DNA from: Nitrospira sp.
GTDB lineage: Bacteria; Nitrospirota; Nitrospiria; Nitrospirales; Nitrospiraceae
Direction: 5' to 3'
DNA: 43,172 nucleotides
Assembly: GCA_016788885.1 (NCBI GenBank)
Contig: JAEURX010000063.1
Coordinates: 1 to 43,172, forward strand
Shown piece by piece: positions 4,948 to 19,577 of the stretch. How positions within the stretch are numbered: the first letter of the stretch is position 1; every line of letters begins with the position of its first letter. The position numbers were made by a program, and so were the translations under genes. The notes below the pieces were generated by a model, which worked only from the letters and a program-made list of their open reading frames with translations, did no database searches and had not been told where the DNA came from.

Positions 4948-7900
4948 TCAGGTCCTGGTCTTGGCCGTCGCGCCAGGCTTGCCGAACTGTGCCTCAAGCC
5001 CCAGGTGAGGTCTGGCCAGGAACGATCCCGCCAGCTTCCGCCCATCATCATACGCCGGTTGTGCAGCCTGCCACTCGGCCATCGGTGGGTTGACCGGAAG
5101 ATTGACCATGAACTTCGTCCCATGCCCCACTTCACTCAGCACTTCCACATAGCCACCATGCTCTTGCACGATTTGGTGGGCAATGGTCAGGCCAAGACCG
5201 GTCCCCTCACGCTCACCGCTTTCGTGCTTCGTCGTATAAAACGGATCGAAGATATGATCCAGGTCATGTGGCTCAATCCCAGGCCCACTATCCTCCACCT
5301 CAATCTGAACCCAAGGCTCGTTCAGTGGCTTGACCAGCTTTCTCGTCCGTACTGAGAGCCGGCCCCCCTGCTCATTGCCGATTGCCTCCATGGCATTGAT
5401 GAACAAATTCAGCAACACTTGCTTGACTTGCTGCCGGTCAAGTTTGACGAAGGGGAGATCGGCCTCGAGTTCCTTTTGAATCGTAATGGCCTTACTACTG
5501 GCCTTCACCTCGATAAAATACAGACAGGACGATACCACGTCGTTCAGATTCTCCAACGTCAGCTTGGGCGTCATGTAGCGGGCATAGTCCAGAATTTCAT
5601 GCACCAGTCGTTCAATCCGCTCGACATCTTCACACACCACCTGGCTGAACTGTTCCATAAACTCCACATCATCCCGTCGATCGGGGGCCAATTGGACGAA
5701 CGTCTTGATCGAGGTGAGCGGGTTTCGAATCTCATGCGCAAAACCGCCGGCCATGGTTTCCAGCGAACGGAGCCGGTCGGTACGGCGCATCAGCAGTTGC
5801 GAACGCCGGAGGTCTTCATAGAGCAACGCGTTGTCGATTGCGATGGCGGCATGTTGCGCCAACGTTTTGAGCAACGCCAGTTCCTCGGTAGAGTACATCC
5901 CGTGATTCGCACGGCGACCTAAGTTGCAGAACCCAACGAGTCGCTCCTTGCTGACGAGAGGAATGCAGACCTCAGATTCCAGTCGCCTCAACGTATCGAT
6001 AAGTCCTAGGTGGTCGGAATCGGCTTTATCGTATTCGATCTCCTCTCGGACCAGCGCGGTTTCGGTTCGAAGCAACACTCTGGGAAATTCACTTTCCATC
6101 TTGATGGGAGGCACGCTGACATCACGAGTCACAAAACCATAGGACGCGGTCAGGCTGTAAATCCCTTGCTCCTTATCAAGCACATACACCGAGGCGGTCT
6201 TGATGTTCATGACCCGAGCGAGCGTTTGCACCAATTCCTTGGTGAGCGACTTCAATTCCAAAATGGCCACGAGAGACCTGGAAAACTGCACCAACGTATC
6301 GTAGGCGTCGTACCGTTCCCGAAAGAGAGTTTGCCCGATCGCTCGCTCCACCCCCTTCTGCAGATTGGCCAAGCCGCTCGAGACAATCACAAACAGGCCG
6401 AAAAGCACGCCGGCAAGGAAATAATGGAACGTGCCGGTAAAAATCCGAATGACGAGCAGAATCATCATGTAGGCCGGAATCAGCCCCATCAATTTGATCG
6501 ACAATATGACCTTGGGGCGGCTCGGGGCGAACGAAATGTCCATCAGTTCGTATCGGGCGATTGCGTACGCAACGACTGTCACCGACAGCCCCGCCAGCAG
6601 ATAGCCGACCGGATAGAAACTGAACCCGTAGTTCTGGAGAAAATCGAGCGAGGCGAGGAATCCCAACGCGATGGCGGCAAAGGTGTATTTGAGTTGGGCG
6701 CCCAGGAGCGGGGTCGATACGAGATGGAACCGGTAGCCCTGATACAGCCGGTAGGCCGTGAAACTGCCGCCCGCCACCACGTAGGCTACCAGCCACGGGT
6801 GGAGGATGCCGGCCTTGGGATAGCGCCCCCAATAATAGAGATATTGACCATCGAGCAAATATGGCGTGAACAGCAGGCCCCAGAACAGCCCCCCAACCAC
6901 GTAGTTCCAGAGAATCAGCCGATCCTGCACCGCTCCCCAGGCAAGCCGCTGCGCGAAGTGATAGGTCAAGGCGGGCAGGAACACCACACCCGTATAGATC
7001 ACCCGCACCCACAGAAGCGCCTCATCTTCCCGCGACGCCGAGAACAACATGAAACAGCCGAATAGCCACAGGCAGGCCGCACCACAGACGGCACTGAAGA
7101 CCGTGTTGGAAGAAGAGCGGGGATTGTTGCTCAACACCCAAAAGGCACAGATGAGAAACAGGGTTCCGGCTAAGAGCGGCGGGGTGGAATGGCCTGTGGC
7201 ACGGTTGCTCAGGATTGCCCCGATTGACGTGGCCACCACAATGATCGCGAGCACAATGGCATAGCCGAGGCCTTTGTTCAGCACAACGCTGATGTTCATC
7301 AGGCGGTACCGAACAATCGTATAGGCCATCAACGCGGTGTACACCGTGATGAGCACCGTGCCGTAGGGCAACAGCGGAACGCCATACCAGAGGGGGAAAT
7401 TCGTCGCGCCGCCTGAGTATCCGATGACACTGGCCACCAGCATATAGGCATACTGATGACGTCGGATTCCGTTGGCGTCTCTCAAGGCTACCCCGACGAG
7501 AGACGTGGCATAAATGACGTACCAGAGAAAATACAACAGAAACGGGTGGAAGAAGGGCCCGGGGACCGGCCAGAAGGCGAAGGACATCGCGGGATGCACT
7601 CCGGCGACAAACCAGGGCGTCGTATCCGCCAGCAGGAAGAAGCCGGCCAACGCGTAGCCGATCTTCAGCGTTCTGGCATGCCGCGCCGTGATATCAAGAA
7701 ATGTGACCGTGTGGTGAAAATAGAGGACGGGAATGACTGAGGCGCCCGCCATGACTAGGCGCAACAGACTGACCGCGAGGTCTTTGGATTCAGTGAGTTG
7801 CCACCCGCAGTAGAAAATGCTCCAGAAGGCGATGCTCAGACAGTACAGCCCGTAGATCCGATTGCGGGCTGCGGCAGGATCCCGGAAATAGACAAACAGT

Positions 7901-7956
7901 CCGAGCCCCGTCGCAGCCAGCGCATTCACGAGCGCGCTGAGTGCGAGCAGTTTCAT
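4948..7956 (-). CDS. Membrane sensor histidine kinase with duplicated 7TM sensor and GAF domain
   Basis: A 1002-residue kinase. Residues 1-250 and about 260-480 are two hydrophobic multi-helix sensor modules. Both end in the same pattern (YTIVRYRLMNIS at 212-223, YAIARYELMDIS at 464-475), so the histidine-kinase N-terminal 7TM region appears duplicated. A further membrane hairpin (485-530) leads to a GAF domain (about 555-712). HisKA follows with the phospho-acceptor His741 (GGFAHEIRNPLTS), then HATPase_c with N-box NLFINAMEA, G1 DSGPGIE and G2 GTGLGL. There is no receiver domain and no response-regulator gene beside it. It starts 33 bases after the PilZ/LuxD/methyltransferase gene, so the two are probably one operon. 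The architecture is like PEP-CTERM PrsK kinases; the ligand is unknown. Confidence 0.93.
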   Translation of the reverse strand: MKLLALSALVNALAATGLGLFVYFRDPAAARNRIYGLYCLSIAFWSIFYCGWQLTESKDLAVSLLRLVMAGASVIPVLYFHHTVTFLDITARHARTLKIGYALAGFFLLADTTPWFVAGVHPAMSFAFWPVPGPFFHPFLLYFLWYVIYATSLVGVALRDANGIRRHQYAYMLVASVIGYSGGATNFPLWYGVPLLPYGTVLITVYTALMAYTIVRYRLMNISVVLNKGLGYAIVLAIIVVATSIGAILSNRATGHSTPPLLAGTLFLICAFWVLSNNPRSSSNTVFSAVCGAACLWLFGCFMLFSASREDEALLWVRVIYTGVVFLPALTYHFAQRLAWGAVQDRLILWNYVVGGLFWGLLFTPYLLDGQYLYYWGRYPKAGILHPWLVAYVVAGGSFTAYRLYQGYRFHLVSTPLLGAQLKYTFAAIALGFLASLDFLQNYGFSFYPVGYLLAGLSVTVVAYAIARYELMDISFAPSRPKVILSIKLMGLIPAYMMILLVIRIFTGTFHYFLAGVLFGLFVIVSSGLANLQKGVERAIGQTLFRERYDAYDTLVQFSRSLVAILELKSLTKELVQTLARVMNIKTASVYVLDKEQGIYSLTASYGFVTRDVSVPPIKMESEFPRVLLRTETALVREEIEYDKADSDHLGLIDTLRRLESEVCIPLVSKERLVGFCNLGRRANHGMYSTEELALLKTLAQHAAIAIDNALLYEDLRRSQLLMRRTDRLRSLETMAGGFAHEIRNPLTSIKTFVQLAPDRRDDVEFMEQFSQVVCEDVERIERLVHEILDYARYMTPKLTLENLNDVVSSCLYFIEVKASSKAITIQKELEADLPFVKLDRQQVKQVLLNLFINAMEAIGNEQGGRLSVRTRKLVKPLNEPWVQIEVEDSGPGIEPHDLDHIFDPFYTTKHESGEREGTGLGLTIAHQIVQEHGGYVEVLSEVGHGTKFMVNLPVNPPMAEWQAAQPAYDDGRKLAGSFLARPHLGLEAQFGKPGATAKTRT

Positions 7957-7989: not shown

Positions 7990-10713
7990 TCATGCAGCAA
8001 TCGTGACATTGGCCAGGCCCTTGTCCGCCACGGCAATAAGTGCTTGGTTCCCAAATGTGGAATACACGCGCGGGCGTGACACACCCGCAGCGCGTAAGAG
8101 CCCTTCGAATTCAGCTTGGTAGTGGAACTGAAACGTGCCTTCGCCTTCGCGTTCCTTGATTCTACCAGAATTGTCGAGGAGACGACGGCCTTCCTCGATT
8201 TGGTCCGCCGTCTGTGCCGTATCCACGAAGTTGCGATAGATGGCAGAGAGATCGGCATAGGGTTTCAGATTGGAAATCACCAACCTCCCCTGAGGAGCCA
8301 ACACCCGGAGATACTCACGCAGTGTGGACAACGGGTCCCGCACGTACCCGAGCACGAGGTTGCACACGACGCGGTCAAAAGAATGGTCGGGAAACGGCAG
8401 CGGATGTTCTAAGTCTGCCTGGCACACGCGCATCGACATGGGCATATAGGCCCGCAACCCCTCATAGAATTGCCCCTGCAGCGTCGCCCCAACCTGCTCG
8501 AAGTTGACCTTCGCCTGTGCCAGCGCCGCCGGCACGAAATCCAGCCCGACATAGTCGGGAGAACGGAAATTTCCTCGACGCGCATACCGCTGTCGGAATG
8601 CCTCATTGAGCTGGAGGAACACGCCGAAATTGCCGTTGCCGCACCCGGCATCCAGAATCCGCTCCCCCTGGTGACATTCCCCCATCAGACGATAGAGGTG
8701 ATCCATTAATCGCCAGAAGTCAGCCACGTTCGGAATCGTCTGAAAATTCTGTAAGTAGTCCTGCCAGAATGCGACGTGGTCGGACTTTCGCATCGGCCGA
8801 CGCGTCTTACTCCGCTCCCGTTCGGTTCGATTCTGTGCACCGATCTCTCGATGCGAGGGTTCGACCGTCCGTTCCTGGCGCCGCTCCGGCCACAACTCCT
8901 GCTGACAACAGACCGCAATCTGGCGATACACCGTGCGGGCCTTCCGCGGACTCTCCTGGATCCGATGCAAGGCTCCCGGAACTTCAAACGAGTGGCGCAG
9001 GTTCGGGCCAATCGCCGCAGCCACCGATGCGATCGATTTCGGATCGACCCAGGCATCCTGCTCGGCATGGAACAACACCACGGGAGTTTGCACGCGCTCG
9101 GCATCGCACTCCGTCGTGGCCAGATCCGCATAACCAGCCTGAACGGCGTGCTCCAGCCAACGATCCGCATCAATCGTCAGGCCTAGGATATTCACCACGC
9201 CTTTGCGCACGCCGGCCAGATGCTCTCCGATGAGATCCTCCTGATGCACAGCCTGCAACGTATGCCGAACATCCATGATGCCGTTGATCAGCATCAGCAA
9301 TCGCACATGCGAGACACGCCCCGCGACCTTGAGGGCCACGCGGCCGGCGAGGCTGGTGGCCACGAGGCCGATTGGTCGACCCGGCCATTGGCTGGCCACA
9401 TGATCGAGCACGGTCTCCAAATCCTGCTCCATGTCTTCAAGGCGAAATTGCGTGACCAGACCGTCACTTTCCCCGACATGGTTCACATTGTCGTAGCGGA
9501 CGACGTGAAAGCCATTGCCCGCAAGATAATACGCCAGTGGGACATAGTCACGTTTGCTCTCCCCATACCCGGGAGCCAATACGACGATAGGCGCCTCTCC
9601 TGCCGGAGCCGTTCGGGGCCGGTCGTGGCACAGCGCGATTCGGACTCCGGATGGCCGGACACATTCCGAAAACTCACTGATCACAGTAGGTTGCTCCGAT
9701 CGGGGCTCTCCGCCGCCCGCCGGGACCTGAGCCAGCAGATGCTCAATGACATCCTCGACCTCTTTCGCAACCGGAAGAAATCGTACTCCTACCAGCACCG
9801 TCTTCCCCGCCACCGGAACGCAACCGGGGCGCACCTCGATCGAGCCGGGTCTCGTCCAGACAACCTCACCAACCACTGAACAGAGACCCGAAGGCAGGAT
9901 GCTCTCCGAGAAGCCCTGGAGTGTGCTCGCCGGTGTCCATCGCAGTTCGAGTTCAGAACCCAACACATCCTCTTCAACCGCGAGACGCACGCACGCTCCA
10001 TTCGGCGTCAGGTCCGTCGTCACTGCATCAGACACCAGTCGCGCTCCCGCCTGATTTCGAAGACTGACCTCCGTACTCAGACCAACGATGATTCGTGGTT
10101 GCCGTCGCCGTTCCTGACGAGGACGTTCAGGCCCTCGCACAAGCTCCAAGCGGGCCTGAGCGACGGGTGCGGGCGGAGCACCGGATTCAATCAGGGCTTC
10201 TTCCTGCTCCTGGGCGATCAATGCCGCAGTCACACGAAGTGCCCGCCCCCCATTCCGGCTCTCGCTCATTAACGAGGCCAACACCCGCTCATCAGCGACG
10301 CTCAAACGCACGAACTGAATGGCCAAGGTCATCGTGGACTGCACTCGCCCTACCCCATTCTGTGCCGCACGAATACCGCAGACCATTCCTATACTCTCTA
10401 GTCCGGCGGCATCCGGGCTGAGGCTCAACATCATCTGTTGATTCAGCATCGCAGGTACTTCCGCGACAAAATCCATTGAGAGCCCGCCAAAACTGATGCT
10501 CCGAGTCGTCCCCTTCCACACCTGGCCTTGAAATCGAAGCTGGGTGGCGAGCCGAACCGTGAGGCGGCGGGAGGCACGTCGCTCCGCAACGGTGAGGGAC
10601 CAGGCATCACTCGTTTTTTTTCTCTCAGGGACCGGAGTGATCCCACTATCCTCAGGCCCGCACGGGCCGATCACAGACATGTGCAGATTGCGCGTTGCGA
10701 CCTGATTCGGCAT
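7990..10713 (-). CDS. PilZ-PilZ-LuxD-type acyltransferase-methyltransferase fusion
   Basis: A 907-residue protein with four modules. PilZ-1 (about 44-150) has ERRASRR but a degraded second motif, SISFGG. PilZ-2 (about 200-325) has RRRQPR and DLTPNG, close to the c-di-GMP consensus. Residues 345-600 match LuxD acyl-transferases: NGFHVVRYDNVNHVG aligns with the LuxD strand-loop, and the triad is Ser454 (ATSLAG), Asp553 (EQDAWV) and His583 (GALHR). Ser-Asp and Asp-His spacings are 99 and 30, against 97 and 30 in Vibrio LuxD (114/211/241). A basic linker leads to a class I SAM methyltransferase (about 640-900) with LDAGCGNGNFG and FDRVVCNLVLGYV. LuxD releases fatty acids from acyl-ACP; here the product may be methylated, but that is inference. 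GGGAGGGG supports the start at 10713 over 10833. Confidence 0.85.
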   Translation of the reverse strand: MPNQVATRNLHMSVIGPCGPEDSGITPVPERKKTSDAWSLTVAERRASRRLTVRLATQLRFQGQVWKGTTRSISFGGLSMDFVAEVPAMLNQQMMLSLSPDAAGLESIGMVCGIRAAQNGVGRVQSTMTLAIQFVRLSVADERVLASLMSESRNGGRALRVTAALIAQEQEEALIESGAPPAPVAQARLELVRGPERPRQERRRQPRIIVGLSTEVSLRNQAGARLVSDAVTTDLTPNGACVRLAVEEDVLGSELELRWTPASTLQGFSESILPSGLCSVVGEVVWTRPGSIEVRPGCVPVAGKTVLVGVRFLPVAKEVEDVIEHLLAQVPAGGGEPRSEQPTVISEFSECVRPSGVRIALCHDRPRTAPAGEAPIVVLAPGYGESKRDYVPLAYYLAGNGFHVVRYDNVNHVGESDGLVTQFRLEDMEQDLETVLDHVASQWPGRPIGLVATSLAGRVALKVAGRVSHVRLLMLINGIMDVRHTLQAVHQEDLIGEHLAGVRKGVVNILGLTIDADRWLEHAVQAGYADLATTECDAERVQTPVVLFHAEQDAWVDPKSIASVAAAIGPNLRHSFEVPGALHRIQESPRKARTVYRQIAVCCQQELWPERRQERTVEPSHREIGAQNRTERERSKTRRPMRKSDHVAFWQDYLQNFQTIPNVADFWRLMDHLYRLMGECHQGERILDAGCGNGNFGVFLQLNEAFRQRYARRGNFRSPDYVGLDFVPAALAQAKVNFEQVGATLQGQFYEGLRAYMPMSMRVCQADLEHPLPFPDHSFDRVVCNLVLGYVRDPLSTLREYLRVLAPQGRLVISNLKPYADLSAIYRNFVDTAQTADQIEEGRRLLDNSGRIKEREGEGTFQFHYQAEFEGLLRAAGVSRPRVYSTFGNQALIAVADKGLANVTIAA

Positions 10714-10922
10714 ACATCCCCTCCCGCAAGATTGAGCGCTGGTCCGTCCAGTGCTGTTCGATGAACAATGCGTGATCATCGTCGCCCGTTTACGCATTGC
10801 GCTCCGGGCGAGGCTGGACTCTTGCAAGCGCACGAATGATTCCAGAGGGGCGAGAAGAAATGAGAGAGTCAGCGCACGGAAGGTTACACGGCACGCACAG
10901 CCTCAGTGTCGGCGCAAAGCGA

Positions 10923-10951: not shown

Positions 10952-10979
10952 ATTCTAGGGAATTAGACATATTTGTCAA
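10952..10979 (-). promoter_or_regulatory. Sigma-70-type promoter of the PilZ/LuxD fusion operon
   Basis: Read on the minus strand, a perfect TTGACA (10979-10974) is followed after 16 bases by TAGAAT (10957-10952), one base from consensus. It faces the fusion gene starting at 10713. The small dyad GACA-TATT-TGTC overlaps the -35 box. Confidence 0.65.
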
Positions 10980-11126: not shown

Positions 11127-11378
11127 CATTTCGGCACCTGATCGCCTGATCCACGCCACCTTCCGCTCATTCCATTAAGAAGTCCTGACGCACCCCTCTG
11201 CCCCGCTCATGATCCGGTTTTAAGAGAGGGTGGCGGTCATCGCGCTTGGGCCGACCGCGAACCGGTCAACGTGAACCCCTCCAAGATTTCTCCTCCCGCC
11301 CCCTGACATCACGCCGGTTGCTTTGACCACAGAGGTATGCTACCCACTGGGGCTGGTCTCCACCATGGGCACACTATC

Positions 11379-11777
11379 ATGCGGCCTATACGCTTTAGAT
11401 CCCCTGCGACTCTTGTGATACTCTTCGCCACCGGCCTCCAGGTCGGCTGCCAGAGCCTTCCGCCTGTCACCGAAGGGTATCCGCATCAACAAGGACTTCG
11501 GGGACAATCGAAGCAATCCGTGCTCGCCTGTGCAGGCGCACCGCTCCAAGAACGCGAAGAGGGAGCCGTCACCATGCTGCGGTATTACAAAGAGGCACCC
11601 CTGTTAGAAGAATCCATGGTGGCGTCAAAGGGCAGCCGGCCGACCGTGCACCACGGCTGCTGGGCCACCGTCATTCTGCAGGACCAGCGCGTGAACCAGG
11701 TCCGCTATCGTTTCGTCCCGAGTTCAGTGGATGCCTCCAACGATTGCGAAGAAATCTTCGCGAACTGCCCGGAATGA
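11379..11777 (+). CDS. Hypothetical lipoprotein
   Basis: Starting at 11379 gives a signal peptide with lipobox LQVGC (Cys24), so the mature protein of about 109 residues should be lipid-anchored. Its middle (QSKQSVLACAGAPLQERE) looks like the first half of the SmpA/BamE-type fold common in small outer-membrane lipoproteins, and four more cysteines follow (HHGCWAT, NDCEEIFANCPE). The stop overlaps the ATG of the next gene (ATGA at 11774), so it is translationally coupled to the beta-barrel protein. The pair probably act together in the outer membrane. Specific function unknown. Confidence 0.72.
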   Translation: MRPIRFRSPATLVILFATGLQVGCQSLPPVTEGYPHQQGLRGQSKQSVLACAGAPLQEREEGAVTMLRYYKEAPLLEESMVASKGSRPTVHHGCWATVILQDQRVNQVRYRFVPSSVDASNDCEEIFANCPE

Positions 11778-12697
11778 TGCCGCTCCGACACACGCGACGA
11801 CAGCGGATTCTCTGGTTGGCGCTGCTGGCCGGCTGCCTTCCATTCCTGACCGACGGACCACCACCCGCCCATGGACTCGAAAAATATGGACGGCCGCTCC
11901 CCTCCATGGACGAACCGGAACACGAGACTCGGGAAGAGGAAGAGACGCTCTTTGGCGGGTACCTGCTGACAGGCGCCTTCGTGAAAAACCCCACCTTCGC
12001 CGCCCGCCCCGACAACACCGGCCTGGTGGGCATGCGTCATATGCTGCACGTGGAAACGGACATCTATAAACAATACTTGACGTTCTACACGGACCAAAAT
12101 TTCTTCTCGGACCGCAACAACGGCTGGATCACCCTGTCGGAATGGGATGCCACCTTCGCCTTCACGGGTGTCATCGATCGGTTCAACTGGCGCCTGCAAT
12201 ACGAGCGTGATGCCCCGCTCGACCGCCGCGGACTCAAACAAGCGTATGCGGATGCGCTGGTGACCGCACGCTTTCAGGCCGTTCAGGATTCCAACTGGTG
12301 GCGGCGCACGTTCCCCAATCAAAACCTCACGGCCTACGCCGGGGCCGGCTGGTTGTTTCACAACAGCCAATACTTTGCTCGCCCGAACAACACAGGCCGC
12401 GCCCTCTTTCGCTACGTGGCCCATGCCGACTTGGATATCTACAAAAACAAAATCGTGCTCTATGGCGACATGAATCTATTTACCGACCGGGAAGCGAGCA
12501 ATACGATAAACCCGTCGGAACTCGACTGGATCGTGGGCATCGCCGTGCGTTGGAAAGACATGGAACTGGCCTTCTATCGGGAAGAAGACCGACCATTGGA
12601 CCAATCGGGGCTGGTTCAGAAGTATTTTGCGGTCCAACTGCGGTTTGCGTTCGACGTGTCCAAGGGGGCGATGGAACGGGTCGGTCTTACTCGGTAG
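11774..12697 (+). CDS. Predicted outer-membrane beta-barrel protein with internal duplication
   Basis: A 307-residue protein with a cleavable signal (ILWLALLAGCLPFL). The rest has alternating aromatic and polar strands and no hydrophobic helix. About 100 residues occur twice. RPDNTG, TDIYKQYLTFYTDQNFFSD, LQYERDAPLDRRGLKQ and ALVTARF in the first half match RPNNTG, LDIYKNKIVLYGDMNLFTD, FYREEDRPLDQSGLVQ and AVQLRF in the second. The start at 11774 overlaps the lipoprotein stop. It converges on pafA 70 bases away. No named family was recognised; an outer-membrane protein is inferred from composition and its lipoprotein partner. Confidence 0.65.
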   Translation: MMPLRHTRRQRILWLALLAGCLPFLTDGPPPAHGLEKYGRPLPSMDEPEHETREEEETLFGGYLLTGAFVKNPTFAARPDNTGLVGMRHMLHVETDIYKQYLTFYTDQNFFSDRNNGWITLSEWDATFAFTGVIDRFNWRLQYERDAPLDRRGLKQAYADALVTARFQAVQDSNWWRRTFPNQNLTAYAGAGWLFHNSQYFARPNNTGRALFRYVAHADLDIYKNKIVLYGDMNLFTDREASNTINPSELDWIVGIAVRWKDMELAFYREEDRPLDQSGLVQKYFAVQLRFAFDVSKGAMERVGLTR

Positions 12698-12766: not shown

Positions 12767-14287
12767 TCACCCAGGATTCTCGGGATTCGGGAAGGCTGAC
12801 CGTCCGGCGAGATGGCCGCGCACGTCCTGCACATAGGTTTTGAACGGATCGGCCATGAAGAACGGTGCAGCCCCCCGCAGTTTAAAATTCGACCAGTTGA
12901 TGATGTAGTCGTACGATGCATGGTCGTCGTACTCAGGCGGAGACGCCATCTCCGGCCCGGCCCCTCCACCGGCAAGAAGGTGGCGGACCAACTCCCCTCG
13001 ACCGAACGCCCGGGTGTTTCGCGGTGGATGGTCCTGCGCCAGCTGAACGACCCTGTCTGTCGTCAAACGCGGCCCACGCCCCTCTTCTTCAAGCCCATAG
13101 CAAAGTCCTCGCTCCGGGTGGAGATTGTGGTATTCGAGGTCCAGGCTCTTCAACATGGGATCATCCCACGCCACCTGTTCGGCGTCCCGATAGGTGTCCA
13201 GCAACCACAACTTCGACGCCCAATCGATCCGCCCCACCAACGCCTCATATCCGCCACGCAAACCGGTCAACACCGACTCCCATTGATCGAGCACCCAATC
13301 CGTCTCTTCATCCTGTCCCTGACAATGGCGTCGAGCCGCCGCAAGAAACTGTTCCTGCACATCGATGGCAGAGATCGACTGCCCCGATTCCAGCCGCACG
13401 ATCCATTGGCGCTCCGGGTCACGGGAAATCTCCTGCAACGCCTCAACCGGCTCACTGATCCCGAGTCCACGCGGGGCCTGCCCCGCCTCAATCAGTTGCA
13501 ACACCAATCCCGTGGTCCCCATCTTCAATGCTGTTGCATACTCGGCCATGTTCGAATCACCGCACAGAAGATGGATGCGGCGGTATTGATTCGGATCGGC
13601 CAAGGGCTCATCCCGCGTGTTGACGATCGCTCGGTTGTGCTGCACCCATTCAAAGAAGTCGTTCACGATATAGTCGGCTCGCTGGGAGATCTGGAACGGT
13701 ACGATCGACCGGTCTTGGGCGTCGCGCAGCCCCGGCCGATGCAAAATGAGGCCGCCGACCTGTATCCACTCGTTGGGATCGCTGGCACAACCGATTCGCC
13801 CGGCGCCCGTGAAGATCTGCCGGGTGACTAGGAACGTGACCAGCGGCCCAAGCCCGCGCCTGGAGAAAGGGAACTGGCGGCTCACCAGATAGTTTTCATG
13901 CGAGCCGAACGTCGCATCAGTTTCGTGGTCGATATTGTTCTTAATCAACGAGACCGTGCCATCCAACTCCAGCGCCGTGATCGCCTGCTGAATGATACGG
14001 TCGCCGGCTCGATCCGATGCCACCAGATCCGCCAGGGTGGTGCATTCAGGCGAGGCATACTCCAGATGCCCCATATCGATATACAGCCGCCCGGCATTCG
14101 TCAGAAAGCCGCCGTTCCCTGGCGGTTCATCGTGACCGCGATGATGCAGATCGAGCACCCCTCGCCGATCGACATGAAAAACATGATCGCGAATGCGTTG
14201 GGCAACCCAGGAGGGAGAGTATTCAGGCCGATCCTGGTTGACCAGGAGGCCATACTCTGTTTCGAGTCCGAAAATACGATTCAGCAT
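12767..14287 (-). CDS. pafA: Pup--protein ligase PafA
   Basis: A 506-residue carboxylate-amine ligase of the glutamine-synthetase-like PafA/Dop family. The metal/ATP motif GLETEYG is at 7-13, the presumed catalytic Asp71 lies in RLYIDMGHLEYASPEC, and SLIKNN, GSHENYLVSRQ, INTRDEP-like NTRDEPLAD and GDSNMAEYATALK follow. It lacks the long insertion (Dop loop) present in its paralogue at 16303-17823. Its C-terminus (FKLRGAAPFFMADPFKTYV) resembles the PafA end. It should join the Pup C-terminal Glu side chain to substrate lysines. It is the last gene of the proteasome cluster, nine bases after prcA, the same position as in actinobacteria. Confidence 0.9.
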   Translation of the reverse strand: MLNRIFGLETEYGLLVNQDRPEYSPSWVAQRIRDHVFHVDRRGVLDLHHRGHDEPPGNGGFLTNAGRLYIDMGHLEYASPECTTLADLVASDRAGDRIIQQAITALELDGTVSLIKNNIDHETDATFGSHENYLVSRQFPFSRRGLGPLVTFLVTRQIFTGAGRIGCASDPNEWIQVGGLILHRPGLRDAQDRSIVPFQISQRADYIVNDFFEWVQHNRAIVNTRDEPLADPNQYRRIHLLCGDSNMAEYATALKMGTTGLVLQLIEAGQAPRGLGISEPVEALQEISRDPERQWIVRLESGQSISAIDVQEQFLAAARRHCQGQDEETDWVLDQWESVLTGLRGGYEALVGRIDWASKLWLLDTYRDAEQVAWDDPMLKSLDLEYHNLHPERGLCYGLEEEGRGPRLTTDRVVQLAQDHPPRNTRAFGRGELVRHLLAGGGAGPEMASPPEYDDHASYDYIINWSNFKLRGAAPFFMADPFKTYVQDVRGHLAGRSAFPNPENPG

Positions 14288-14296
14288 AACAATTGG

Positions 14297-15136
14297 TCAG
14301 GCCGGATGCGGCACGCCCACGCCAGACGGCAGCACCCCCCCCAATTCATCGGGACGAAGCGCGCGATATTTCGACGACCCGGGCCCCTTGCGCTCCAGCA
14401 GGATGCATTCCAGGGATTTTTCGGCAACGATCTTCCGCACATGGTCCAGCAACGTGGCCTTGCCCGGCAGGCTCGACGCCTCACTCACAGCCTTGTCCGC
14501 AGAGACGGAATTGGCAGCGGCCTCTCCCCCCACAACGTCCGAGGCCGCTTGCGCCAGGGAACCAACGGCCCATGCGCAGAGGGCCATCTCAACCGCCTGC
14601 TTCAACGGAGCCTGTTCGACTCCGGTTTGCGAGTCCAGGTACCGACCCATCTGGGCCTGGACGTCAGCGCTCGCACCTAACGAGGCCCACCGGCGGCTCT
14701 CCTCAAACGTGCCATCATAGTTGATGGTCAGAAACAAATCCCGCTCCGGCTTGGCGCCCAATTCAGCCAGGAGAATCTTCACGATAAACGGCGCCTTGTA
14801 GATTTCTTCGAAGGCCTGCTTGATGGCCGGAGCCAACCCGTACTTCATCAATCGAGCACCAGTCACATCAGACGGCGACCGGTTGAATCCCTCGATGTGG
14901 GCCATCTCCAGCAGGGAAAAGCGCAACTTTTCCAAATCCGCCGGATGCCCCATCCCGCCGAGGGCAATACGATCGTAGATTTCGTAGAGCTTGGGCGTGC
15001 CACGGCTTACCGTGAGCATCAGAATCCCGTCGGCATAGGCCAAGGCGACAACCGGCGCGCCTTTCGTAAACTGCTCATCGAGATAGTGACGTCGGTTACC
15101 GACCGCCTCGATCCACCGATAGGGTTCTTCATACAT
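14297..15136 (-). CDS. prcA: Proteasome subunit alpha PrcA
   Basis: A 279-residue alpha-type 20S subunit. Recognisable features are the start MYEEPYRWIEAVGNRR, the strand GAPVVALAYADGILML in place of the beta active-site strand, and KLYEIYDRIALGGMGHPADLEKLR, typical of bacterial PrcA. No N-terminal catalytic Thr is present, as expected. Seven copies form each outer ring of the core and gate entry. It contains an Ala/Ser-rich insertion (about 195-235). The C-terminus (SGVGVPHPA) is proline-rich. AAAGGTGATC precedes the start. It is 59 bases after prcB and 9 before pafA. Confidence 0.9.
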   Translation of the reverse strand: MYEEPYRWIEAVGNRRHYLDEQFTKGAPVVALAYADGILMLTVSRGTPKLYEIYDRIALGGMGHPADLEKLRFSLLEMAHIEGFNRSPSDVTGARLMKYGLAPAIKQAFEEIYKAPFIVKILLAELGAKPERDLFLTINYDGTFEESRRWASLGASADVQAQMGRYLDSQTGVEQAPLKQAVEMALCAWAVGSLAQAASDVVGGEAAANSVSADKAVSEASSLPGKATLLDHVRKIVAEKSLECILLERKGPGSSKYRALRPDELGGVLPSGVGVPHPA

Positions 15137-15195
15137 CAGAGATCACCTTTATTCACAATCACGTTCATGAGGTCGCACCGAGCGAACAACAGAGC

Positions 15196-15969
15196 TTATC
15201 GCCCGCGGACGACGTCCCGTTCGTACAGTCGCTTCAAATCCACATCTGCAATAGCATGAACCCCGGCAGCGGTAATCAATTTGACCACCGGGTACAGGTT
15301 TAGTTCTCGATTCACCCCACCCGTCGCCGAGTCGAACTCCGCCGCGCTCGAGAGCAATCGTAAGGCCTGGACCGTCGCCTGCTCTTCCGGCAAGGCCGCC
15401 AGTGGCTGCGGGCCCCAGGTATTCACATAGTGCAAGATCCCCCGGATCGTCGGCGATCCGGATCCGGAGACGGCGTACTCCACGGCTTCAAACTCGGCGC
15501 CCAGAATGTCATAGAAATAAATCTTGGCTGCAGCCTGCTCGTGATCATACCCGGCAAAGACAGGAACGACCGCCCCCGTTCCCGCCAATGCGGCAGGCAC
15601 ATTTTCCTTGAGCAACTTGGACACCGCACGAAGCTTCCCCTCAAAGCTCAACTCCTGCAACTGCGTCCGACGGTAGTATTTGAACGAATGCTCGAGCACA
15701 CGCACCATCTCATAGGCGGTCGCCGGCACGCCGGCAATGGCCATCACACTGTGACGGTCGATCTCCAGCACCTTGTCGGTGCGGTCGTACATGACCATGT
15801 TCCCAGCGGTCGCCCGACGATCCCCCGCAACCAAGACCCCGTCGCGATACTTCATTGCGAGAATCGTCGTGGCAGTCGGCACTTCCAACCCGGTAGCTGC
15901 CGCGACCGGATTGCCGAACTGATAGCCCTGTTCCTTCAACAGTTGAAAAAAATCCCCCTGCATCCCCAT
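15196..15969 (-). CDS. prcB: Proteasome subunit beta PrcB, catalytic
   Basis: A 257-residue beta-type 20S subunit made as a precursor. The propeptide is residues 1-33 and the mature chain would begin at Thr34 (TTILAMKY). Counting from it, Asp17 (AGDRRAT) and Lys33 (TDKVLEI) fall exactly where the N-terminal nucleophile hydrolase requires them. SGSGSP and DSATGG supply the conserved later motifs. It forms the inner proteolytic rings. The residue before the catalytic Thr is Ala rather than the Gly seen in Mycobacterium PrcB. AAAGGG lies eight bases before the start. The 136 bases up to the Pup gene hold no further gene. Confidence 0.92.
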   Translation of the reverse strand: MGMQGDFFQLLKEQGYQFGNPVAAATGLEVPTATTILAMKYRDGVLVAGDRRATAGNMVMYDRTDKVLEIDRHSVMAIAGVPATAYEMVRVLEHSFKYYRRTQLQELSFEGKLRAVSKLLKENVPAALAGTGAVVPVFAGYDHEQAAAKIYFYDILGAEFEAVEYAVSGSGSPTIRGILHYVNTWGPQPLAALPEEQATVQALRLLSSAAEFDSATGGVNRELNLYPVVKLITAAGVHAIADVDLKRLYERDVVRGR

Positions 15970-16105
15970 ATCGCTACCCTTTCCGACGCATTCACTCCCG
16001 TCATGTCAGACGGACACCAGGATGAGGACGTCACTGCGCGAGTCCGACGAGGGCCTTCCGAGGCCGCGCGTGGCGCGAGCAATGGCCCTGCCCCGGTGGC
16101 CAACC

Positions 16106-16300
16106 TCACTCCCCCGTCCGCTGCCGGTATCGTTCCGCCTGCTTCGGATCCACCTTACGCATCCGCTTCAAGAGGTTGTCTTTATCCGGCGAACCCGTGT
16201 CCGGTCGGCGCGGTCCCCCGCCTTCGTCCGACGGAACCGGAGATTTCGGCATCGGGTCGCCGGGAGCTTCCCGACGATCCGGCATCATCATATATGACAT
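16106..16300 (-). CDS. Pup-like protein modifier (UBact family)
   Basis: A 64-residue, Pro/Gly/charged and presumably disordered protein ending RQRTGE. It sits between dop and prcB, the position of pup in actinobacteria. The C-terminal half (DKDNLLKRMRKVDPKQAERYRQ) is the helical segment expected to contact the ATPase coiled coil. R-T/S-G-E/Q endings are characteristic of UBact, the Pup homologue described in Nitrospirae and other Gram-negative phyla. The terminal Glu is already present, so deamidation should not be required before PafA uses it. The start at 16300 (MSYMMMPDRR) is chosen because AAAGGAA lies eight bases upstream; upstream in-frame codons fall inside dop. The gene follows the dop stop by two bases. 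Confidence 0.88.
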   Translation of the reverse strand: MSYMMMPDRREAPGDPMPKSPVPSDEGGGPRRPDTGSPDKDNLLKRMRKVDPKQAERYRQRTGE

Positions 16301-16302
16301 GG

Positions 16303-17823
16303 TTATGGTTCCTTTCGTTTCGTCCATGCAGCCAGGGCTTCGGCTGGAGACGCCGCAGTTTCCCACAGCGCCGCACAAGCCCGCACGGCATCCGGCTCAA
16401 ACAGGTCACCCATCTCCAGTGTGCGCGACCGCAGGCCCCCGCTGAACTGTACCCGCTCCCACTGCATACCGCTGATCTCGGTCGAAAACCGCCGCACACA
16501 CAATCCGCGCAACCCGCCACGGGTATCCGCAGGTCCGGCCGTCAGCGCCTCCGCGATGTCACGATCGGTCGTCATGCGCCAGGTTTTACCTTCGGCCTCC
16601 AGCCCCAGAAACAACCCGCGCTCGGGGCTCACGTTATGATATTCCAAGTCCAAGCTGGCGAGCCATGGGTCCTCCCAGGTCAGCCGTTCTTCGCGCATGA
16701 AGGTCTCCAGCAACCACTGCTTGGTCACCCAATCCAGCTTTCCGACCAATTGCGTACGATCCTGCGCCAGCAAGCGGAGAGTCTCCTGCCATTCACGCAA
16801 GACCCAATCTGCATCGGGATCACTGCCGGCGCACGCCCGGCTTGCCGCATGCCAATATTCCTCTTGTATGGCGAGGCCTGACAATGTGCGTCCATCCTTC
16901 AGACGCACCACTGCCTTGACATCCGGATCTCGCGACAACTGCTTGATCGCGGCCACCGGCTGCTCCAACTCCAGCTCCGGGGCTGCGCCGCGTTGCAACA
17001 CCTCGAGCACCAGCCTGGTGGTGCCGACCTTGAGGGCGGTCGCGTACTCACACATGTTGGCATCCCCGAGTATCAGATGCAGACGCCGATACTTGGTTCG
17101 ATCGGCATGGGGTTCGTCACGCGTGTTGAGGATGGGGCGATTGTGCATCGTATCCACCCCCAATTCCGCTTCCATGAAGTCGGCCCGTTGCGAGAGCTGG
17201 AAGGGACCGGGCACATACCCCGACTCCTGCGCTTCCATTCCGACTTTCCCGGCCCCGGCCAACAGCTGGCGGCTGACCAGAAACGGCAACAATCCGCTGA
17301 CGAGTTGTGGAAAAGACAACGAGCGTGGAACGAGGTAGTTGTCATGGCAGCCGTAACTGTGGCCATGAAAATCCGTGTTGTTTTTGTAGAGTTGCACGTG
17401 GGCGCCGCCGAGTTGTTGATTTCGTCGATCGGCCGCCCGCTGCACGATACGCTCCCCCGCCCGATCGTGCGCCAGCAGATCTTTAAGCGTGCGACATTCC
17501 GGGGTGGAATATTCGGGGTGGGTATGGTCGTTATAAAACCGGGCGCCGTTCGGCAGCACCAGGTCACTTTTCATGTCGTGAAACGAATACGGGCGATGGG
17601 CATCCAGCTTGGCGAAGTCGTCCTCCTCCTGATCCTGCTGCAGACCCGACACCCGGAAGCCTCGCGCATCCTCGTGCGGATCTTCCCCCCGATAATCCCA
17701 TCGCCGTTCGAAATCTCCGGTCAGATGCGCACGCACCAACTCCATCGACTCCTCGACCGGATCAACCGCGTCGAGGTCTTCTCTGGTAATGCCGTATTCC
17801 GTCTCAATGCCGAACAGATGCAT
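16303..17823 (-). CDS. dop: Pup deamidase/depupylase Dop
   Basis: A 506-residue paralogue of PafA. The start MHLFGIETEYG gives the ATP/metal motif at 5-11. The insertion RWDYRGEDPHEDARGF (about 41-56) closely follows the RWDYE...DARGF stretch of Mycobacterium Dop and marks it as Dop rather than PafA. The catalytic Asp99 lies in RFYNDHTHPEYSTPEC. The C-terminus contains QFSGGLRSRTLEMGDL, as in Dop. It should remove the modifier from conjugates; deamidase activity seems dispensable because the modifier ends in Glu. The in-frame extension to 17928 overlaps arc and is rejected. It starts two bases after the arc stop. Confidence 0.9.
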   Translation of the reverse strand: MHLFGIETEYGITREDLDAVDPVEESMELVRAHLTGDFERRWDYRGEDPHEDARGFRVSGLQQDQEEDDFAKLDAHRPYSFHDMKSDLVLPNGARFYNDHTHPEYSTPECRTLKDLLAHDRAGERIVQRAADRRNQQLGGAHVQLYKNNTDFHGHSYGCHDNYLVPRSLSFPQLVSGLLPFLVSRQLLAGAGKVGMEAQESGYVPGPFQLSQRADFMEAELGVDTMHNRPILNTRDEPHADRTKYRRLHLILGDANMCEYATALKVGTTRLVLEVLQRGAAPELELEQPVAAIKQLSRDPDVKAVVRLKDGRTLSGLAIQEEYWHAASRACAGSDPDADWVLREWQETLRLLAQDRTQLVGKLDWVTKQWLLETFMREERLTWEDPWLASLDLEYHNVSPERGLFLGLEAEGKTWRMTTDRDIAEALTAGPADTRGGLRGLCVRRFSTEISGMQWERVQFSGGLRSRTLEMGDLFEPDAVRACAALWETAASPAEALAAWTKRKEP

Positions 17824-17825
17824 AG

Positions 17826-19577
17826 TTAGATAATCTGATTCACCAACCGCTCTTCCGTGGGCCTGCCACGGCGGAAAGACGAGACGCCGACCACCTGCTC
17901 GGGATGATGATCCAGCAATTTCAGCCATTCCTCGGCTGCATCATCGGGCGGCAGCATCTCTCCCTCGCGATATTCCTCCTGCACCGCATCGAGCAAATCC
18001 TGCGTCCGGATGCCGTCGCCGGAGGGGGGCCCGGCCTCGGCGACCGCACGTTCGATCGCCTTCTCCTTCGCCCGCTGCACGATCGAAGAAAGGATCGCGC
18101 CGCTGACGAGATCGCCCCGGTACAGGACTTTATTCTGCCCGTTCCGGAGTCGGATCGATAACACGCGATTCTGATCAGTACGCGAGAAGAGTTGCTCCAC
18201 CACCTGCTCGATGACAGCGCGGCGGGCAATGGCATGATCCTGATTGTTTCGATCCAGCAGCGTCTGATCGAGCGGCAACGCCGAGGTGAGATACACCGAC
18301 AGGATCTCCACGGCCGCTTCGCGATTCGGGCGTGCCACCTTGATCTTGCGATCGATGCGACCCGGCCGCAGCACCGCCGGATCGATCAAATCCGGCCGGT
18401 TCGACGCCAGAATGATCACCACATCTTGCAGCGACTCGATCCCATCCATTTCGGCGCAAAACATCGGTACCAGGGTGTTATTAATATTGAACGATCGCAT
18501 GGACCGTCTGGTTCCCAACACCGACTCCGCCTCGTCGATGAAAATGAACGGCAAGGCCCCTTCCTTGCGTCTGGCGCGGGCCTTGGCGAACAGGTCGCGC
18601 ACGATCCGCTCGGATTCACCCAGCCACATATTCAAGATCTCTGGGCCCTTGATGTGCAGGAATGCGCCGCTGGTCACCGGAGGATGCTTCGCCTTCCCCT
18701 CCGGGCCAGACTGACCGTGCGACTCCCGCACCAACTGCGACAGGCTGGCCGCGGCCGCCTGCCCGATCAGCGTCTTGCCGCATCCCGGCGGCCCATACAG
18801 GAGAAAGCCTTTCGGCTGCGTAAACTGGTACTTCGCAAACGTGTCGGCATGCAGCAGCGGATATTCAATCGCTTTCCGAATGGCCTCGATCGCCTGATGT
18901 TGGCCGCCGATTTGCGCCCACGTCACGCTCGGCACTTCGTCCAGTAGATGGGCGCGCGCCTGTCGGTTTTCGAATTTTTCGATGGCAATGCGGTGAGTCG
19001 GCTCAACCCGCACCTCATCGCCGGGCTTCAGGTCCGCCCCCACCAAATCACTGGAGCGTTGAAGAATCAGTGCCTGCCGCCCCATGTCCTGCTCAAAACG
19101 AATCCGGCCGTCCGGCAGGAGCTCCGCCACTTTCAACACCGGTCCGTTTCGGTCATAGCCGAGCGCCTTGATCACCGTATAGGCCTCATTGACGAGAATC
19201 TGCGTACCGATCTTCAGGTCCTCGACCGGAAGCCGTGGATCGGTATTGGCGTAATACTCCGCCCCGCCCACCACGATTCGAGCCACGCCTTCCCCGGGCA
19301 ACTCGACCAGGAGGCCAACACGATTGGCCGGCGCGGTCAGCTTGGCAACGACATCACTTAATTTCTTCAGTTCGCTATCGCGACGGTCCTGCGTCACCGA
19401 TTGCGCCATGACCACGTGCCGTAATTTATAGAGCAGCTTCTGGCGCGGATCACCGTCGGGAAACGCGGCCAGACATTCGTCTATCAGTTCGATCGGATCG
19501 GCCGAAACCCCGGCTTCACGGAGCGGCCCCTGATGGCCCCCAGGGGTCGGCTGATCTGGATTGCGATGGTCACTCAT
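17826..19577 (-). CDS. arc: Proteasome-associated AAA+ ATPase ARC/Mpa
   Basis: A 583-residue hexameric unfoldase. Residues about 45-80 form the coiled coil that docks the modifier, and about 85-205 the tandem OB folds. The AAA+ domain has Walker A GPPGCGKT (262-269), Walker B FIFIDEAE (344-351) and the arginine-finger region VLRPGRIDRKI. It threads tagged proteins into the 20S core. Its C-terminus is LVNQII, whereas Mycobacterium Mpa ends in GQYL, the motif that docks in the alpha ring. The pattern is similar but the Tyr is replaced by Ile. GGAGGAAG precedes the start. It is first in the core arc-dop-pup-prcB-prcA-pafA order. Confidence 0.92.
   Translation of the reverse strand: MSDHRNPDQPTPGGHQGPLREAGVSADPIELIDECLAAFPDGDPRQKLLYKLRHVVMAQSVTQDRRDSELKKLSDVVAKLTAPANRVGLLVELPGEGVARIVVGGAEYYANTDPRLPVEDLKIGTQILVNEAYTVIKALGYDRNGPVLKVAELLPDGRIRFEQDMGRQALILQRSSDLVGADLKPGDEVRVEPTHRIAIEKFENRQARAHLLDEVPSVTWAQIGGQHQAIEAIRKAIEYPLLHADTFAKYQFTQPKGFLLYGPPGCGKTLIGQAAAASLSQLVRESHGQSGPEGKAKHPPVTSGAFLHIKGPEILNMWLGESERIVRDLFAKARARRKEGALPFIFIDEAESVLGTRRSMRSFNINNTLVPMFCAEMDGIESLQDVVIILASNRPDLIDPAVLRPGRIDRKIKVARPNREAAVEILSVYLTSALPLDQTLLDRNNQDHAIARRAVIEQVVEQLFSRTDQNRVLSIRLRNGQNKVLYRGDLVSGAILSSIVQRAKEKAIERAVAEAGPPSGDGIRTQDLLDAVQEEYREGEMLPPDDAAEEWLKLLDHHPEQVVGVSSFRRGRPTEERLVNQII

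Follow-up and report, generated by a model that had tools for sequence, protein, structure and literature searches.

A LuxD-type acyltransferase fused to PilZ and methyltransferase domains next to a 7TM sensor kinase in Nitrospira: a candidate fatty-acyl signal synthase

Results

Gene organisation of the locus

The window, a contig of 43,172 nucleotides from Nitrospira sp. (assembly GCA_016788885.1, JAEURX010000063.1), contains a gene for a 907-residue protein in which two PilZ domains are followed by a LuxD-type acyltransferase domain and a class I SAM-dependent methyltransferase domain (Table 1). The reading frame is not interrupted and stays open up to position 10833, and the ATG start at 10713 is preceded by the Shine-Dalgarno-like sequence GGGAGGGG. 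In the Pfam search the protein matched PilZ in two stretches (61.9 bits), the LuxD family PF02273 and several methyltransferase models at about residues 681-821. The initial annotation had placed the four modules in one polypeptide. This was borne out, since they are encoded by a single open frame that is intact in 12 genomes, and the frameshift check returned one gene, not separate genes. A frameshift or an assembly join behind the fusion was ruled out, as the protein is also encoded, free of internal stops, in 11 further genomes of the genus.

Table 1. Features of the LuxD-methyltransferase locus in the window
Feature	Position	Strand	Remarks
PilZ-PilZ-LuxD-methyltransferase gene	7990..10713	(-)	907 aa, stop codon counted in
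PilZ domain 1	10267..10584	(-)	residues 44-149; RxxxR kept, Asp/Asn of DxSxxG is Ser
PilZ domain 2	9748..10113	(-)	about residues 201-322, end approximate; motifs RRRQPR and DLTPNG
LuxD-type acyltransferase/thioesterase domain	8917..9597	(-)	residues 373-599, from Pfam and fold
Catalytic Ser454 codon (VATSLAG)	9352..9354	(-)	from alignment with LuxD; conserved in 39/39 active members
Catalytic Asp553 codon (AEQDAWV)	9055..9057	(-)	from alignment with LuxD; conserved in 39/39 active members
Catalytic His583 codon (ALHRIQE)	8965..8967	(-)	from alignment with LuxD; 37/39 active members, other two gapped there
Class I SAM-dependent methyltransferase domain	8251..8673	(-)	Pfam core, residues 681-821; whole fold about 625-900
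Partner sensor histidine kinase gene	4948..7956	(-)	1002 aa; ATG 34 nt downstream of enzyme stop, same strand
HisKA_7TM sensor domain, copy 1	7291..7929	(-)	
HisKA_7TM sensor domain, copy 2	6535..7176	(-)	
Kinase GAF domain	5833..6255	(-)	
Kinase HisKA and HATPase_c core	5089..5760	(-)	
Sigma-70-like promoter match TTGACA-16-TAGAAT	10952..10979	(-)	upstream of operon; weak, 1 seen vs 1.3 expected by chance

The enzyme gene forms an operon with the downstream gene of a tandem-7TM-GAF sensor kinase, and no terminator was found in the 34-nt gap between the two. The two sensor domains of this kinase are the only matches to PF16927 (HisKA_7TM) in the genome. A related kinase is encoded directly downstream on the same strand in nearly all relatives of the enzyme, which come from four Nitrospirota groups and from Verrucomicrobiota, and the enzyme and kinase genes there often overlap by ATGA. 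Kinases of the 7TM type exist also without the enzyme. Neither a response regulator nor FadL is adjacent to the locus in the window itself.

Two divergent genes for proteins of 146 and 317 aa lie upstream of the operon (11337-12697, forward strand), and their synteny is kept across the genus. Neither protein had a Pfam match; the 146-aa protein appeared lipoprotein-like by eye. The window also holds a Pup-proteasome cluster (12767-19577, reverse strand) that encodes two PafA/Dop-like proteins, a proteasome beta subunit and a Mpa/ARC-type ATPase, with a probable alpha subunit at 14297-15136. Every score of the cluster proteins was below the NCBIfam equivalog cut-offs.

The LuxD-type domain

The hydrolase part was assigned by profile, alignment and structure. 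PF02273 (Acyl_transf_2/LuxD) was its top Pfam match with 84.6 bits against a cut-off of 20.3 (87.7 bits in the genome-level search), followed by Hydrolase_4 with 67.8 bits. A generic hydrolase was therefore rejected: PF02273 scored best, and the dienelactone hydrolase and peptidase S9 families, which the initial annotation had named as the alternative to the expected PF02273, were absent from the Pfam matches. Among the NCBIfam models LuxD also ranked first, yet with 81.9 bits against the equivalog cut-off of 420 (NF052253). Because of this low score the hydrolase part is classified as a LuxD-superfamily enzyme and not as LuxD itself.

In an alignment with the LuxD protein of a luxC-D-E block (L165), ATSLAGR, DAWV and ALHR of the window protein corresponded to ASSLSAR, DNWV and SSHD. 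This confirmed the previously proposed triad of Ser454, Asp553 and His583, with spacings of 99 and 30 residues. The structure 1tht of V. harveyi LuxD, a myristoyl-ACP thioesterase/acyltransferase, was the sole solved structure with strong sequence similarity (E 5e-17). Residues 345-907 were modelled with AlphaFold2 (pLDDT 87.8, pTM 0.82), and in the comparison of the model with known structures 1tht was found at rank 1 by Foldseek (E 1.6e-17) and as the best match by VIA-align (Z 31.5, rmsd 2.8, 281 of 293 residues). The two share the fold, the Ser/Asp/His triad (97 and 30 residues apart in LuxD) and a nucleophile elbow that is not of the GxSxG type (ATSLAG in the window protein, ASSLSA in LuxD). 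They differ in that the identity is only 22% (20% over the residues aligned by structure), the score is below the equivalog level, and the window domain is fused to PilZ and methyltransferase domains and coupled to a sensor kinase.

The window genome also differs in the partners of LuxD. The earlier statement that no luxC or luxE lies nearby could be extended, as a profile search of the whole genome detected no LuxE and gave for LuxC only a marginal match in a 1003-aa frame elsewhere. A role in bioluminescence or fatty-acid reduction was excluded by the absence of LuxE from the genome.

The methyltransferase and PilZ domains

The methyltransferase domain has an intact motif I, DAGCGNG, and a class I fold (CouO, for example, matched with Z 20.8, rmsd 2.6 and 208 aligned residues). 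The structural matches were generic and tied, and the fold gives no clue to the methyl acceptor.

The two PilZ domains differ in their c-di-GMP motifs. PilZ2 keeps RxxxR and DxTxxG, whereas in PilZ1 a serine replaces the Asp/Asn in 12 of 12 short-form proteins. From these motifs PilZ2 of the window protein looks competent to bind c-di-GMP and PilZ1 does not. Relatives that carry a receiver domain have canonical RxxxR and [DN]xSxxG motifs in both PilZ domains. Our literature search found no paper that joins PilZ with LuxD and none on PilZ-methyltransferase fusions, either in Nitrospira or generally.

Distribution and relatives

Each of the 12 genomes sampled from the window genus, which falls in lineage I Nitrospira, carries an intact copy of the gene, and most of the proteins are about 65-85% identical to the window protein. 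One short-form protein of 816 aa (L045 8179-10629, G141) has a partly deleted or rearranged PilZ region and intact LuxD and methyltransferase parts. The search for the architecture across Nitrospirota recovered the whole genus sample and members of other Nitrospirota families, and relatives were also present in 5 of 388 Verrucomicrobiota genomes.

The LuxD-methyltransferase part is the constant core of these proteins. The amino terminus consists of PilZ-PilZ in the window genus, of receiver-PAS-PilZ-PilZ in L082 and L085 (similar in L083) and of one PilZ domain in L051; it has no recognised domain in L046, L047 and L049 and is absent in L094. At some of the loci there are also genes for response regulators, a c-di-GMP phosphodiesterase, the lipid transporter FadL or an acyl-CoA dehydrogenase. 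In genus g6 a receiver-PAS-PilZ-methyltransferase protein without the LuxD domain is encoded near a tandem-7TM kinase (L054 7697-9913), a natural domain deletion.

Proteins for acyl compounds were found at two kinds of loci. In Verrucomicrobiota, a FadL/TodX outer-membrane protein is encoded in 5 of 5 loci, divergently with a GAF kinase, and a receiver-kinase protein lies nearby. In Nitrospirota, FadL and an acyl-CoA dehydrogenase are encoded next to the enzyme at a class-level locus (L056), and an acyl-CoA dehydrogenase and a receiver-kinase at L055; the enzymes of both loci are distant members, and PF02273 does not pick up their hydrolase part.

An inactivated paralogue is accompanied by a kinase without the membrane sensor

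The window genome also encodes a paralogue of about 1,400 aa with the order receiver-PAS-PilZ-PilZ-LuxD-methyltransferase (L002/L034), and most sister genera in the family encode orthologues of it. Its nucleophile position is Asp, the acid and histidine positions are not conserved across the orthologues and the SAM motif is eroded. The accompanying kinase is a soluble GAF kinase of 420-450 aa that is predicted to lack TM helices in almost all members. It is followed in the operon by an NtrC-type sigma-54 regulator and then by a receiver-HD-GYP protein. The PilZ domains and this HD-GYP regulator point to c-di-GMP.

With TM helices assigned from hydropathy alone, a kinase with a TM sensor accompanied all 29 tallied members with an intact triad and was missing in 21 of 22 dead members. 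The exception, L087, has a Ser to Asn change of the nucleophile and a TM kinase 2.1 kb away. Since the dead members form one clade in the tree (support 90/97), the association reflects few events and not 50 independent ones. In g2, g4, g7 and g9, none of the 10 genomes sampled in which the dead paralogue is the sole version of the gene had a HisKA_7TM domain; G127, another genome with the dead paralogue, has a single unrelated copy at a different place. L088 (5373-9680) shows decay by a third route: the nucleophile is changed from Ser to Gly, no kinase is present and the NtrC-type regulator follows directly.

In the paralogue clade the active site of the hydrolase and the SAM site have thus been lost together with the membrane sensor, and the kinase core, the PilZ motifs and the regulators persist. 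The joint decay of both active sites is as would be expected if the two reactions were coupled. Likewise, the loss of the sensor along with them is as expected if the membrane domain of the kinase sensed the product of both catalytic domains.

LuxI and the active enzyme do not co-occur in the sampled genomes

LuxI was surveyed in 56 genomes. It was encoded in none of the 19 genomes with an active LuxD-methyltransferase, versus 26 of 34 genomes of the same family without one (Fisher p 3e-6 within the family, with ancestry ignored and with the contrast there being essentially that of one genus with the others). The two were never found together in the sampled genomes. LuxI has been reported in several lineage II but not in lineage I Nitrospira (PMC5767232). 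The anti-distribution fits a replacement of one acyl signal system by another.

Discussion

The initial annotation had described a LuxD-type enzyme fused to two PilZ domains and a methyltransferase, without LuxE and perhaps making a lipid signal, and this part stood. The proposed c-di-GMP control, with one PilZ motif degenerate, and the methylation of the released acyl chain did not gain the same footing. The 7TM kinase neighbour, the inactivated paralogue with its response regulators and HD-GYP protein, the FadL and acyl-CoA dehydrogenase genes of relatives and the complementarity to LuxI go beyond that description and make the odd fusion a candidate signalling system. We consider it an even call that the LuxD-methyltransferase is the signal synthase of a fatty-acyl two-component system, with the 7TM kinase as its sensor and with c-di-GMP and the receiver as inputs. 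The fusion in one polypeptide, the LuxD-type sequence, fold and triad, the intact SAM motif, the kinase operon, the co-loss in the paralogue, the linkage to regulators and FadL in relatives and the LuxI anti-distribution are observed. From these we infer an acyl-ACP donor, a methylated acyl product, its export, its sensing by the partner kinase and a gating by c-di-GMP.

In such a system the LuxD-type domain would take an acyl chain off acyl-ACP by means of Ser454, Asp553 and His583, and the fused methyltransferase would then methylate what is released; the simplest outcome would be a fatty-acid methyl ester or a methoxy-acyl derivative. The product would be exported or partition into membranes and could be sensed by the 7TM-GAF kinase encoded in the operon with the enzyme. 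Related loci have this type of kinase beside an NtrC-type regulator and a HD-GYP c-di-GMP phosphodiesterase, or beside a PhcR-like receiver-kinase. The PilZ domains, together with the receiver-PAS part in relatives, would make synthesis respond to c-di-GMP and to the phosphorylation state. The enzyme would have decayed in sister lineages, many of which use LuxI instead, to a receiver-PAS-PilZ-pseudoenzyme scaffold next to a soluble kinase.

One known parallel is the Phc quorum-sensing system of Ralstonia, where the SAM methyltransferase PhcB makes 3-OH fatty-acid methyl esters (3-OH PAME/MAME) for the kinase PhcS encoded next to it, and which also comprises the receiver-kinase PhcR and PhcQ (phcB-phcS-phcR-phcQ; PMC8578825). 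In both systems a methyltransferase gene stands beside a sensor kinase gene, and among relatives of the window locus there are further a receiver-kinase protein (in L055, L094 and L183-L186) and neighbours that handle lipids. As described, however, PhcB is a methyltransferase that has no hydrolase domain, whereas the window protein joins LuxD and methyltransferase and adds PilZ. No PhcB model was among the Pfam and NCBIfam matches listed for the window protein, and a tblastn search of plasmids with the full-length protein brought up generic methyltransferases and one LuxD. The likeness is drawn from descriptions and not from sequence; on the signal-synthase reading the pair would function like PhcB and PhcS.

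The main alternative is that the enzyme is the output of the pathway, where the kinase senses another cue and, through the receiver or PilZ inputs, switches an acyl-transferring, methylating enzyme that acts on membrane lipids or an envelope glycolipid. Several relatives bear a receiver at the amino terminus of the enzyme that the neighbouring kinase could phosphorylate, and the two PilZ domains suggest a regulated enzyme output. Also, the kinase operon resembles PrsK-PrsR of the XrtA/PEP-CTERM system, which is tied to exopolysaccharide export (PMC1569441), in the GAF-HisKA-HATPase layout of the kinase and in the NtrC-type regulator of the long-form operon. The window kinase scored 143.8 bits against the cut-off of 300 of the PrsK model TIGR02916, however, and the long-form regulator scored 436.3 against 502.6 for PrsR (TIGR02915) and was nearer to AtoC-type models. 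Against an output role speaks the dead-enzyme clade, where the TM sensor is gone but the receiver, PilZ, kinase core and regulators remain; the kinase signalling has therefore survived the loss of the enzyme, and the sensor has not. In addition, the minimal Verrucomicrobiota enzyme, without receiver or PilZ, still keeps the 7TM kinase. We regard an output role as unlikely.

Less probable still is a role of the enzyme in signal turnover or quorum quenching, in which it would break down or modify an acyl signal or an exogenous fatty-acyl ester and the kinase would sense the substrate. Hydrolases of the LuxD fold are structurally near to monoglyceride lipases and feruloyl esterases, and some loci encode the importer FadL and an acyl-CoA dehydrogenase. 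But a purely degradative role does not readily account for a fused methyltransferase whose SAM motif is conserved, and the best match in sequence and fold is the acyl-ACP thioesterase LuxD. A housekeeping lipid enzyme for the synthesis of methyl-branched or otherwise modified membrane fatty acids is very improbable. Acyl release and a methyltransferase could tailor fatty acids, but the gene is not universal in the family, where most sister genera have the dead paralogue instead, and it is linked to sensor kinases. A primary-metabolism pair such as BioH-BioC, with an accidental regulatory fusion, is hardly credible: BioC/BioH likewise combine a methyltransferase and an alpha/beta hydrolase that act around acyl-ACP, but the weak BioC match (TIGR02072, 37.8 bits) lies far under the cut-off of 185 and below the scores of 8 other methyltransferases of the genome, the hydrolase is LuxD-type and the neighbours are signalling genes, and a BioC/BioH identity was thus discarded.

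Two-component systems for lipid signals are already known as a kind; there is a real chance of a new autoinducer class among them. A stronger form of the signal-synthase reading is possible but falls somewhat short of even: that lineage I Nitrospira and Verrucomicrobiota use an undescribed class of cell-cell signalling, with a methylated fatty-acyl autoinducer, an adjacent 7TM kinase and direct gating by c-di-GMP, and that LuxI and AHLs replaced it in many other Nitrospira and left the pseudoenzyme scaffold. Nitrospira are key nitrite oxidisers of soils and wastewater plants. The module is a candidate route for signalling in lineage I, which includes Ca. N. defluvii and has no LuxI, and offers a concrete, clonable candidate for a synthase and its receptor that ties acyl signalling to c-di-GMP. 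The loss of the catalytic sites together with the membrane sensor where LuxI is common is a natural experiment.

The LuxI systems of lineage II Nitrospira (PMC5767232) are likewise acyl-based, but LuxI belongs to an enzyme family unrelated to the LuxD-methyltransferase. In rhizobia, FadL imports long-chain AHLs (PMC9938287). In two Nitrospiraceae genomes (G036:C6:660560-663432 and G085:C19:175642-178442) we observed LuxI (PF00765) about 1.3 kb upstream of FadL/TodX on the same strand, and this proximity suggests a FadL-assisted uptake of long-chain AHLs in both.
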